The notes below the pieces were generated by a model that saw only the letters and a list, made by a program, of their open reading frames with translations, made no database searches and was not told the origin of the DNA. A program made the translations under genes and the position numbers. A DNA stretch of 64,000 bases from Propionicicella superfundia DSM 22317 (GTDB lineage Bacteria > Actinomycetota > Actinomycetes > Propionibacteriales > Propionibacteriaceae): positions 265,409 to 329,408 of the forward strand of contig NZ_KE384020.1 of NCBI RefSeq assembly GCF_000423465.1. Direction: 5' to 3'. Below are positions 9,653 through 46,520 of the stretch, piece by piece. The first letter of the stretch is position 1. The number at the start of each line of letters is the position of its first letter.

Positions 9653-10359
9653 CGCGGTGTCCTTCCGCGCGTGTGGGCGAGGAACACGTCCTCCAGGGAT
9701 GCGGTGGCCGTCAGCTCTGCCGTCACGCCTCCGGTCACGATCCGCCCGTCGTCCATGATGTACACGTGGTCGGCGCGGACGGCCTCGGCCATGTCGTGGG
9801 TGGCGAGGACGATCGTCACGCCTGCGTCGCGGAGGCGGTCCATCACGTCCCAGGTATGGCGGCGGGCATGCGGGTCCATTCCGGCGGTGGGCTCGTCGAG
9901 GACGACGAGTTCGGGGCGTCCGATGAGGGCGGCCGCGAGGTTGAGGGCCTGCCGCTGACCGCCCGACAGGCGCCGGAAAGGGATCTCGGCGAAGTCGCCG
10001 ACGCCGAGGTCGTCCATGAGCGGGCCGACCGGGTGGGGCGTGGCGTAGAGCCGCGCCAGATACCCGAGGAGCCGGCGGGGGGTGATCCCCGACCACGATC
10101 CGGGGCTCTGGGGCATCCAGCCCACGCGCAGGCGGTTGGCCGCGCTGCCGGGCGCCTCACCGAGCACGCGGACCGTCCCCGCATCGGGTGTGATGAGCCC
10201 GGTGCAGCACCGGAAGGTTGTCGTCTTGCCCGCGCCGTTGGGGCCGAGCACCGCCGTGATCGCGCCACGCTCGGCGGTCAGACTGAGCCCGGCGAGGATC
10301 CGCCGCGACCCGCGGGTGACGTCGACACCATGGATGGCGACGGCGGCGGGCGGACTCAC
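9649..10359 (-). CDS. ABC exporter ATP-binding protein beside ctaA
   Basis: Cytosolic ATPase subunit of 236 aa that partners the following permease. Walker A GPNGAGKT, signature LSGGQRQ, Walker B VVLDEPTAGMD and the switch histidine in LATHDM are all intact. GTG start. A TAGACT hexamer six bases upstream of the start suggests a leaderless transcript for the ATPase-permease-ctaA operon. Substrate is not predictable from the sequence; ABC-2 exporters of this kind move drugs, lipids or polysaccharides. Confidence 0.9.
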   Translation of the reverse strand: MSPPAAVAIHGVDVTRGSRRILAGLSLTAERGAITAVLGPNGAGKTTTFRCCTGLITPDAGTVRVLGEAPGSAANRLRVGWMPQSPGSWSGITPRRLLGYLARLYATPHPVGPLMDDLGVGDFAEIPFRRLSGGQRQALNLAAALIGRPELVVLDEPTAGMDPHARRHTWDVMDRLRDAGVTIVLATHDMAEAVRADHVYIMDDGRIVTGGVTAELTATASLEDVFLAHTRGRTPR

Positions 10360-31503: not shown

Positions 31504-32226
31504 GTGAGTATTCAAGAGTCTGCTGCCAGAAGCGTGGTCGTCACCGGCGGGAACCGGGGAATCGGACGTGCGATCGTCGAGCGGTTCGTCGCCGCCGGGC
31601 ATCGGGTCGCCTCGTTCGACCTGGGCGGCGAGCCGCCCGCGGGCGTCGTCGGCGTCTCCTGCAACGTGACGGATCCCGAGCAGGTCGATGCCGCGTTCGC
31701 GACGGCAGAGGAGGCCAACGGCCCCGTCGAGATCCTCGTCGCCAACGCCGGCATCACGAAGGACACCCTGCTGCTGCGGATGTCCGACGCCGACTGGGAC
31801 GCTGTGATCGGCGTCAACCTGACCGGTTCCTTCCGCTGCGCGAAGCGTGCGGTGAGGTCCATGATCGCCAAGCGGTTCGGCCGGATCGTCTTCCTCGGAT
31901 CCGTGGTCGGCCTGTACGGCTCGGCGGGGCAGGTGAACTACTCCGCTTCGAAGGCGGGGCTCGTCGGCATGGCGCGGTCGCTGACACGCGAGGTCGGAAG
32001 CCGCGGCGTCACGGTCAACGTCGTCGCTCCGGGCTTCATCGAGACCGACATGACAGCCGTCCTCTCCGAGGAGGTCGTGGCCGGGTACAAGAAGGCGATC
32101 CCCGCCGGCCGGATGGGGCAGCCCGCCGACGTCGCGGCGGCGATCCAGTTCCTGGCCAGCGACGAGGCGGGTTTCATCACCGGGGCCGTGATCCCGGTCG
32201 ATGGCGGCCTCGGCATGGGGCACTGA
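31504..32226 (+). CDS. fabG: 3-oxoacyl-ACP reductase (FabG/MabA)
   Basis: NADPH-dependent short-chain dehydrogenase of 240 aa that reduces beta-ketoacyl-ACP in fatty acid elongation. The cofactor motif TGGNRGIG is near residue 14, NAG near 85, and the catalytic Tyr146 and Lys150 lie in YSASK. GTG start. Adjacent fabI, 10 bases downstream, gives the fabG1-inhA pair known from mycobacteria, where both serve the type II synthase. Confidence 0.95.
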   Translation: MSIQESAARSVVVTGGNRGIGRAIVERFVAAGHRVASFDLGGEPPAGVVGVSCNVTDPEQVDAAFATAEEANGPVEILVANAGITKDTLLLRMSDADWDAVIGVNLTGSFRCAKRAVRSMIAKRFGRIVFLGSVVGLYGSAGQVNYSASKAGLVGMARSLTREVGSRGVTVNVVAPGFIETDMTAVLSEEVVAGYKKAIPAGRMGQPADVAAAIQFLASDEAGFITGAVIPVDGGLGMGH

Positions 32227-32236
32227 GGAGGGCGGC

Positions 32237-33007
32237 ATGGGGATCCTCGACGGAAAGAACATCCTCGTCGCGGGCGTGACGATGCACACGTCCATCGGGT
32301 ACAAGGTGGCCGAGCTCGCCCAGCAGGAGGGGGCGACGGTCATCGTCTCCAACTTCGGGCGGGCCATGAGCCTCACCGGCCGCGTCATCAAGCGCCTCGA
32401 CCCGGTGCCGGCGCTGATCGAACTCGACGTGACCGATGACGAGCACCTCGCCGGACTCGCCGACACGCTGCGCGAGCATGTCGACCATCTCGACGGCGTG
32501 GTGCACTCGATCGCGTTCGCGAATCCGGAGACGGCCCTGGGTGGACGGTTCCTCCAGACCTCCTGGCCCGATGTCGGGCAGGCCGTCCACGTGTCCGCGT
32601 ACTCTCTCGTCGCGCTCGCGATGGCGTGCCGTCCGCTCCTCGGACGAGGCTCGTCCATCGTCGGCATGACCTTCGACGCAACCGTCTCGTGGCCCTTCTA
32701 CGACTGGATGGGCGTCGCGAAGGCCGCGCTGGAGTCCGCGAACCGCTATCTGGCCCGGTACCTGGGGCCCGACGGCGTTCGCAGCAACCTCATTTCCGCA
32801 GGCCCGATCGACACGCTCGCAAAGAAGGCCATTCCGGGGACCGAAGAGTTCAACAGGGTCTGGGGAGAGCGCGCGCCGCTGGGCTGGTCGACCACCGATT
32901 CGGTTCCGGCGGCAAAAGGCGTCCTGAGTTTGCTCAGTGACTACTTCCCGGCGACCACAGGTGAGATCATTCACGTTGACGGTGGCCTGCATGCCACCGG
33001 AAGCTAG
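32237..33007 (+). CDS. fabI: enoyl-ACP reductase (InhA/FabI)
   Basis: NADH-dependent enoyl-ACP reductase of 256 aa that completes each fatty acid elongation cycle. It begins MGILDGKNILVAGV, has HSIAFAN in the cofactor site and the catalytic Tyr155-x6-Lys162 in FYDWMGVAKAALES, as in InhA (Tyr158, Lys165). ATG at 32237 with GAGGAGG five bases upstream. The family is the target of isoniazid-NAD and triclosan. It follows fabG in one operon. Confidence 0.96.
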   Translation: MGILDGKNILVAGVTMHTSIGYKVAELAQQEGATVIVSNFGRAMSLTGRVIKRLDPVPALIELDVTDDEHLAGLADTLREHVDHLDGVVHSIAFANPETALGGRFLQTSWPDVGQAVHVSAYSLVALAMACRPLLGRGSSIVGMTFDATVSWPFYDWMGVAKAALESANRYLARYLGPDGVRSNLISAGPIDTLAKKAIPGTEEFNRVWGERAPLGWSTTDSVPAAKGVLSLLSDYFPATTGEIIHVDGGLHATGS

Positions 33008-33036
33008 AGTGTCACCAACCGCCAAAGGAGGCTCAA

Positions 33037-33231
33037 GTGACGGAGAAACCGGTTGTGAACCCGAACTACGGGGGCAATGACGAACCGCAGCCCGAGAACG
33101 ACCCGCTCGTCAATCCCAATATGGGCGGCGAGCAAGCCTATGACGCCGAAGACATCGATTCGTCGGGTGATCCCGAGGTGAACCCGAACTTCGGCGGCGG
33201 GGATCGTCCGCGCCCCCCGAAGCAGGACTGA
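33037..33231 (+). CDS. 64-aa acidic protein with VNPNxGG repeats
   Basis: A short acidic, proline- and glycine-rich protein that I do not recognise. VNPNYGG, VNPNMGG and VNPNFGG occur at residues 7-13, 25-31 and 48-54; only the aromatic or Met position varies. There is no signal peptide, membrane segment or cysteine, so it is likely cytosolic and disordered. GTG start with AAAGGAG six bases ahead, which is strong evidence that it is translated. It lies 29 bases after fabI and ends before a terminator, so it appears to be the last gene of the fabG-fabI operon. Confidence 0.75.
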   Translation: MTEKPVVNPNYGGNDEPQPENDPLVNPNMGGEQAYDAEDIDSSGDPEVNPNFGGGDRPRPPKQD

Positions 33232-33251
33232 GGCGTCGAGATTCCTTCGCG

Positions 33252-33290
33252 ACAAGACCCCGTTGCGCCCCGTGCGTGACGGGGTCTTGT
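33252..33290 (+). terminator. terminator after the fabG-fabI-small protein operon
   Basis: Perfect 12-base-pair stem (33252-33263 with 33279-33290) and a 15-base loop. The TAGGTT -10 element of the next gene begins at its last base. Confidence 0.75.
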
Positions 33291-33295
33291 AGGTT
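33290..33295 (+). promoter_or_regulatory. -10 element of a leaderless promoter for the ABC ATPase
   Basis: TAGGTT (TANNNT) followed by seven bases and the ATG at 33303. The gene has no ribosome site. The hexamer abuts the preceding terminator stem. Confidence 0.5.
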
Positions 33296-33302
33296 CTTGG
33301 GT

Positions 33303-34088
33303 ATGGCAGCGGTTGTGGAGTTGGCGGGGGTGTCCATCGTGCGCGGCGGCAAACACCTGCTGCGGGACGTCGACTGGCGAATCGATGAGGGCGAGCGCTG
33401 GGTGGTCATCGGTCCCAACGGGGCGGGAAAGACGACGCTGCTGCAGATCCTGGCCGCGCAGGTGCATCCCACATCGGGCCTTGCCGCACTGCTGGGCGAG
33501 TTGCTCGGCGCGGTCGACGTGTTCGAACTCCGCCCTCGCATCGGGGTCTCCTCGGCGGCCCTCGCCGACCGCATCCCGCGCGGAGAGTCCGTCGGCGATG
33601 TCGTGGTGTCGGCCGCGTACGCGACGGTCGGCCGGTGGCGGGAGGCCTACGACCCGGTCGACTATCTGCGCGCCGCCGCACTGATGCGGCAGTTCGGCGT
33701 CGAGCATCTCGGCCGCCGGACGTTCGGGACCTTGTCGGAAGGCGAGCGGAAGCGGGTGCAGCTCGCACGCGCACTGATGACCGATCCCGAACTGCTGCTG
33801 CTGGACGAACCGGGTGCGGGCCTCGACCTGGCCGGTCGTGAGCGGCTCGTCACCGCCCTCGGGGACCTCTGCAGCGACGAGGAGGCGCCCACCACCGTCC
33901 TCGTCACACATCACATCGAGGAGATCCCGGCGGGAATCACGCACGCGCTGATGCTTGCCGACGGCATGGTGACCGCGGCAGGTCCCATCCACGAGACGCT
34001 CACCGACGAGGCGCTGACCCGGACGTTCGGCCTGGACCTCGCCCTGGAGTTCACCGCGGGTCGGTGGGCCGCCCGGGCGCGTCGCTGA
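33303..34088 (+). CDS. ABC transporter ATP-binding protein, stand-alone
   Basis: A 261-aa single-domain ATPase with Walker A GPNGAGKTT, signature LSEGERKR, Walker B LLLLDEPGAGLD and the switch histidine region VTHHIEEIP. The LSEGE signature and HHIEEIP segment resemble the ModF/YlmA-type ATPases that lack a linked permease. ATG at 33303, leaderless by position. No permease is adjacent, so its partner or role is unknown. The last 38 bases overlap the convergent transporter gene. Confidence 0.85.
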   Translation: MAAVVELAGVSIVRGGKHLLRDVDWRIDEGERWVVIGPNGAGKTTLLQILAAQVHPTSGLAALLGELLGAVDVFELRPRIGVSSAALADRIPRGESVGDVVVSAAYATVGRWREAYDPVDYLRAAALMRQFGVEHLGRRTFGTLSEGERKRVQLARALMTDPELLLLDEPGAGLDLAGRERLVTALGDLCSDEEAPTTVLVTHHIEEIPAGITHALMLADGMVTAAGPIHETLTDEALTRTFGLDLALEFTAGRWAARARR

Positions 34089-45874: not shown

Positions 45875-46096
45875 GTGCGGGACCTCCGCAACCGCGGCGG
45901 TGCCGTCGTGGACGAGGTGGCGCGCGGCGGAGCGGTGGTCGTCACGCGAGATGGGACCCCCGTGGCCGAACTCCGGCCGCTCCCGGGCCCTGCGCTCACG
46001 GTGAGAGAACTGATTCGGCGCCGCCGGTCGCTCCCCGATGTCGATCTCGCTCGGCTGCGCTCCGATATCGACGAGTGGATCGACGCGAGCCTGTGA
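45875..46096 (+). CDS. Phd/VapB-like antitoxin
   Basis: A 73-aa antitoxin of the Phd/YefM type, with VRDLRNRGGAVVDEVARGG, then ITRDGTPVAELRP-like VVVTRDGTPVAELRPL and a C-terminal toxin-binding arm VDLARLRSDIDEWIDASL. Such proteins neutralise PIN-domain VapC RNases and autoregulate. The first ordinary start is GTG at 45875, one base after rlmN, with no ribosome site. Related antitoxins usually begin some five residues earlier, so the 5' end may be truncated or translation coupled to rlmN. Confidence 0.75.
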   Translation: MRDLRNRGGAVVDEVARGGAVVVTRDGTPVAELRPLPGPALTVRELIRRRRSLPDVDLARLRSDIDEWIDASL

Positions 46097-46520
46097 GCGA
46101 GGAGCAGGCGACCAGCGGCATCATCGACACGAACACCCTCATCCTGCTCGGACGTCTCGATCCGGACGACCTTCCCGGGATTCCGCTGATCACGACGATC
46201 ACCCTCGCGGAGCTCTCGGTCGGACCCCTGTGGCGACCGACGACATCGAACGGTCCCGCCGGCAGGCGCATCTGCAACCGGCCGAGGCCGACTTCGATCC
46301 GCTGCCGTTCGACGCGGCCGCGGCGCGGGCATTCGGCTCGGTGGCCGCGAGCCTTCGCGCCCGCGGTCGCAAGCCCGCGGCCCGGGCCTGTGACGCGCTC
46401 ATCGCGGCGGTTGCTGTGGCGTCGTCGCTGCCGCTCTACACGGCCGACCCGGATGACTTCGAGGGCATCGAGGGCCTTGACCTGCGTCCGGTGCCGGTCA
46501 GCGCCTCTCGTCCGCGGTGA
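46093..46520 (+). pseudogene. VapC-type PIN-domain toxin, frameshifted
   Basis: The N-terminal part (GTG 46093, frame 1) reads GIIDTNTLILLGRL and TLAELSVGPL, carrying the first Asp and the Glu of a PIN RNase site. After about 46230 the matching sequence continues in frame 3 as ATDDIERSRRQAHLQ, then CDALIAA and YTADPDDF with the last two acidic residues. Loss of one base near 46228-46232 explains the break. All four catalytic acids survive, so the break is recent or a sequencing error. It overlaps the antitoxin stop (GTGA) and runs 23 bases into the convergent LOG gene. Confidence 0.85.

Follow-up and report, generated by a model that had tools for sequence, protein, structure and literature searches.

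Propionicicella superfundia DSM 22317 carries two small ORFs with tandem copies of a conserved heptapeptide motif, and we hypothesize, at a probability of roughly 45%, that the first of them encodes a lineage-specific disordered protein offering three turn-like motif copies to a putative partner protein. This ORF of 64 codons (33037-33231, forward strand) lies behind the fatty acid synthesis genes fabG and fabI in the 64,000-nucleotide stretch of DNA analysed here, referred to as the window. It is probably a real gene under selection, and we infer that it is translated.

The ORF runs from a GTG start to a TGA stop and begins 29 nt past the stop codon of fabI, with a ribosome binding site, AGGAGG (33026-33031, forward strand), 5 nt ahead of the GTG, which agrees with the well-placed site described in the original prediction. 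The coordinates, the start codon, the three VNPN[Y/M/F]GG motifs and their spacings of 18 and 23 residues were likewise confirmed. On the forward strand, motif 1 (VNPNYGG, residues 7-13) is encoded at 33055-33075, motif 2 (VNPNMGG, residues 25-31) at 33109-33129 and motif 3 (VNPNFGG, residues 48-54) at 33178-33198. The terminator proposed behind the gene holds in part: a strong hairpin of 17 pairs with a loop of 5 (33252-33290, forward strand) is the probable transcript end, with -38 kcal/mol for the 67-nt stretch, a folding z-score of -5.8 and none of 200 shuffles equal to it, but it has no T-run and for that reason is missing from a consensus scan for T-run terminators. A two-hexamer promoter scan gave no promoter-like site in 32900-33400, and codon usage is weak (log-odds per codon of 0.12 in frame versus 0.02 in the best antisense frame). 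The protein matched no family in Pfam, NCBIfam, PHROGs or PADLOC up to an E-value of 10, a limit at which the HMMER filters already remove most matches above about 0.1, and no solved structure by sequence at E ≤ 10. Rfam gave no match above gathering scores in the window or in the second stretch described below (L029).

The case for a real gene is strengthened by a sister ORF elsewhere in the same genome, which a search with the 64-residue protein recovered at E 5.9e-5. It occupies L029 9845-10087 (80 amino acids) or, from an upstream ATG, 9809-10087 (92 amino acids). Like the first ORF, it has three V-N-P/A-N-x-G-G motifs (VNPNLGG, VNPNYGG and VNANYGG) at similar spacing (18 and 18 residues), a good ribosome site (GAAGGAG) and a strong hairpin 3' of its stop codon (z -3.6), and the promoter scan likewise found no promoter-like site ahead of it. 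Unlike the first, it is not acidic (7 D/E and 3 K/R), has a longer C-terminal tail and lies among other neighbours; its Pfam matches were confined to E-values of 0.13-0.23, under the curated cut-offs. The original prediction had named the combination of no homologue and no translation signal as evidence against the gene, and we find both a paralogue and a ribosome site.

A degenerate DNA pattern for VN(P/A/S/T)NxGG occurs six times in the 3.62-Mb genome, every time within one of these two ORFs. The same pattern reversed, used as a control, has no match in the genome, so the confinement of the motif to two ORFs is beyond chance. All six copies share V, N, N, G and G without exception, which supports the short repeated motif as the conserved feature of the chain. 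In every copy a bulky hydrophobic residue (Y, M, F or L) comes after N-P/A-N, with Gly-Gly behind it. Across the five invariant positions, 8 of the 30 codons deviate from the commonest codon, and all eight changes are synonymous and fall on the third base; read in other frames, the motif DNA has no invariant column in the two forward frames and three in the best reverse frame. Identity between copies is 12-19 of 21 nt in the motifs and 7-17 of 30 nt in the linkers, and the linkers are unrelated. Because the changes at the invariant motif positions are synonymous only and the linkers have diverged, this pattern, with its small count of eight differing codons, suggests that selection acts on the peptide motif and leaves the linkers free to vary. 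The six motifs in two genes could also descend from one duplicated ancestor with little time to diverge. Once the self match and the hairpin's own reverse match are set aside, there is no long DNA copy of the stretch elsewhere in the genome (non-self hits of 16-31 nt, best E 0.0018). A mobile origin of the stretch was considered and set aside for want of a long repeat.

No tandem motif was found outside this genome among 198 genomes of the family, 394 of the class, 391 of the order and 396 of the phylum, samples that overlap and include the genome itself; its genus is represented by this single genome among the 198. The exact motif occurs in 4 of the 198 family genomes and 19 of the 394 class genomes, with more than one copy only in P. 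superfundia, and at the other 18 class loci no open frame has more than a single motif. A profile built from the six motifs scores 30-34 bits on each of them in its own genome (E 2.2e-6 or better), with no further match there at E ≤ 10. Among the order genomes it matched one other (E ≤ 0.02), a lone VNPNFGG in a 451-residue frame at E 0.018, and among the phylum genomes none beyond its own at the same threshold. At E ≤ 0.1 it matched five other family genomes, where the loci hold VNPNYGG once, NPNLGG once and no such motif in three cases, and none has a tandem. Searched against the genomes of 57 relatives, the 64-residue protein had matches at E ≤ 1 in 21 of them, its own included; beyond itself and its sister the best E-value was 0.039, and none of the loci examined for these weaker matches has the tandem motif.

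The wider collections gave the same result. Degenerate peptide patterns picked out 54 stretches in public genome contigs, none of which was confirmed, and VNPNYGG occurs in 87 stretches (L039-L125, all examined) with one motif per open frame, in a scan that is limited to a single codon pattern with Y as the variable residue, can miss members with other residues throughout and may omit records of this genome or very near ones. Viral contigs yielded 56 stretches with VNPNYGG and 25 with VNPNFGG, with no tandem by the spacing rule; a second N.N.GG occurs in only one of them (L132), whose open frame is 2435 residues long. Neither protein had a tblastn match among plasmids and phages. The pair is probably lineage-specific, and the search that had been proposed for VNPNxGG proteins adjoining inhA in other actinobacteria came back empty in the samples covered.

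The genes around the 64-codon ORF are predicted to encode a fabG-type 3-oxoacyl-ACP reductase (31504-32226), a fabI/inhA-type enoyl-ACP reductase (32237-33007; NF005908 at 403 bits, cut-off 299) and, downstream, an ABC ATPase (33303-34088; PF00005), all on the forward strand. Co-transcription with fabG and fabI is likely, given that only 29 nt separate the ORF from fabI and that the hairpin comes only past the ORF. A TAGGTT at 33290-33295 (forward strand), 7 nt ahead of the ATG at 33303, may serve the ABC gene as its -10 box. The promoter scan is negative there, but five of the six relatives' loci that are compact have TAGGTT (three loci) or TAGATT (two loci) in the corresponding gap ahead of the ABC gene, which suggests a conserved -10 box and a leaderless transcript. 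With such a box the 64-codon gene would be the last in the fabG-fabI transcript. Among the fabI loci compared (the best 29 of 38 matching relatives, from 41 searched), the ABC gene, which in some relatives follows fabI directly, lies 12-75 bp past it in six, leaving no room for the ORF, and 801-873 bp past it in five; in the other 18 it falls outside the compared flank, which in two is only 15 and 926 nt. None of the 29 loci has the tandem motif, and an insertion behind fabI within this lineage is therefore the probable origin of the gene's position. Elsewhere in the window, a radical SAM gene is followed by two small called ORFs (45875-46096 and 46230-46520) for which Pfam gave no match at E ≤ 1e-5.

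The sister ORF is flanked on one side by a gene set for a peptide-type (opp/dpp-type) ABC importer, after which come genes for a LacI-type regulator and for an alpha/beta hydrolase, and on the other side by a LysR-type gene. It lies away from fatty acid synthesis genes, the nearest of that general kind being an AMP-binding enzyme about 5 kb off. Between about 50 and 120 nt upstream of it, depending on the start chosen, is a hairpin with a T-run (L029 9724-9755; TATGCGCAC...GTGTGCATA, then TTTTT) that could be a terminator, attenuator or operator; the scan for such hairpins upstream of the sister found one, against 0.5 expected in shuffles. About 3 kb from the sister, a 74-codon ORF (L029 13219-13443) matches the Colicin D family at E 1.1e-7 and is perhaps a polymorphic toxin tail or a remnant of one.

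The main rival is that both ORFs encode leaderless multi-core peptide precursors, from which VNPNxGG would be excised and possibly modified, to act as a signalling or antibiotic peptide that the importer beside the sister would take up. Several like cores on one chain are found in AMdnA, a precursor of a microviridin pathway (PMC5934393), and the position of the sister, with the importer genes on one side and the LysR gene on the other, would suit such a system. Against this, hardly any leader is present, since only 6 residues precede motif 1, or in the sister 5 (17 from the upstream start), and we see no evident secretion signal by eye. In contrast to known multi-core precursors of ribosomally synthesized and post-translationally modified peptides, the motifs have no Cys, Ser or Thr in the core; Cys is absent from both proteins altogether and Ser and Thr from all six motifs, which disfavours the commonest peptide modification chemistries. 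No modifying or maturation enzyme was identified among the neighbours scanned (15 of the 64 other ORFs of the window and 13 of the 18 others of L029), and of the radical SAM genes seen there, the one near the sister, which has a HemN_C domain, is about 7.9 kb away, and the other lies about 11 kb from the 64-codon ORF. The link to the importer lacks independent support, because relatives of its binding protein occur at four places in only 3 of 36 relatives' genomes (32-37% identity, E ≤ 1e-60). We consider the precursor reading unlikely on balance. Slightly less probable is the proposal that these are two young lineage-specific genes with no settled function, in which a motif-bearing segment was copied and the likeness reflects recent common origin. 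The restriction of tandem motifs to one genome among the samples searched fits it, as do the six compact loci, where the gene is missing from the fabI-ABC gap, but neutral copies would be expected to lose motif residues while their linkers diverged, whereas all eight codon differences at the invariant positions are synonymous, and the lack of any long DNA copy in the genome also speaks against it.

The original prediction had suggested a scaffold or regulator of the FabG-FabI enzymes, for which the short gap behind fabI, the hairpin placed only after the ORF and the probable shared transcript remain the arguments. This is now very unlikely: relatives keep fabI with no tandem-motif gene in the compared flanks, six of their loci have no space for one, and the sister is encoded away from fatty acid synthesis genes. 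Neither context points to a shared pathway, and the position behind the fatty acid genes looks accidental; in our reading the end of fabI is a site of insertion that provides steady expression, and the gene has no role in fatty acid synthesis. Close to refuted is a relationship to the N-terminal peptide of CsgF that binds the CsgG secretion pore. That peptide, GTMTFQFRNPNFGGNPR, contains NPNFGG in a segment that binds its partner (PMC6957492), and of 5.39 million open-access papers a single one, on CsgF, has any of the strings NPNYGG, NPNFGG, NPNLGG, NPNMGG, VNPNxGG and NPNxGG (CsgF together with NPSFGG was not found in the open-access literature). However, CsgG is absent from this genome at E ≤ 0.01, in a search whose control was found in 4 of 14 named genomes, and neither protein has CsgF among its Pfam hits up to E 10. 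In contrast to the three internal copies here, CsgF has a single copy near its N-terminus and belongs to the curli system of outer-membrane bacteria. As no CsgG was found in this genome, the resemblance is most likely convergence. A different likeness is to the thiolases. The segment VNPNGGGIALGHP, which fits the motif with x = G, was found as a single motif-pattern hit in four thiolase-like ORFs (L220, L225, L237 and L037), where we take it to be the C-terminal active-site signature. It stands there once in a large ORF, unlike the motif of the 64-residue protein, which also lacks the GHP part that defines the signature.

Returning to a motif protein with a partner, this reading starts from what the sequences and searches show, namely gene signals, a repeated motif, a sister ORF, conservation at the amino acid level and the absence of a relative from the collections searched, and adds by inference translation, disorder, a turn, a partner and avidity. 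The original prediction had described an acidic disordered chain. The acidity is plain in the composition (14 D/E against 4 K/R), but disorder is only consistent with a single-sequence AlphaFold2 model of the 64-residue protein, with a mean pLDDT of 57.6, a pTM of 0.12 and one helical turn of three residues as its only regular structure. The single-sequence model of the sister has a mean pLDDT of 40.0 and two strands of three residues, where motifs 2 and 3 begin, with pLDDT below 50. Such alignment-free predictions are weak evidence and say little, and they fit two disordered chains. The tails past the last motif (10 residues in the first protein, 32 in the sister) show no likeness to each other by eye. 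A repeated, conserved short motif, a trait of multivalent short-linear-motif proteins, is present in both proteins.

We propose that the 64-codon ORF encodes a small unfolded protein whose sole conserved content would be three copies of V-N-P-N-(Y/M/F/L)-G-G carried on variable linkers. N-P-N stretches are prone to turns, and each copy would probably form a tight N-P-N turn that exposes one hydrophobic side chain and is closed by the flexible Gly-Gly. Each could then dock into a pocket of one putative partner protein, and three copies per chain may provide avidity or tether up to three partner molecules to one another. Encoded at another locus and controlled differently, the sister would bind the same putative partner.

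Orphan small proteins are usually hard to distinguish from noise, and here the comparison that could not be drawn from other genomes comes from a paralogue in the same one. The motif therefore offers a testable handle on the putative partner. Should no partner or processed peptide be found, the gene would stand as an example of a lineage-specific addition to the end of a fatty acid operon. If one is found, VNPNxGG would be a new bacterial recognition code, and we tentatively regard it as possible that a turn motif, present three times per chain in two proteins of one lineage, is read by a dedicated putative partner or excised as a signalling heptapeptide.
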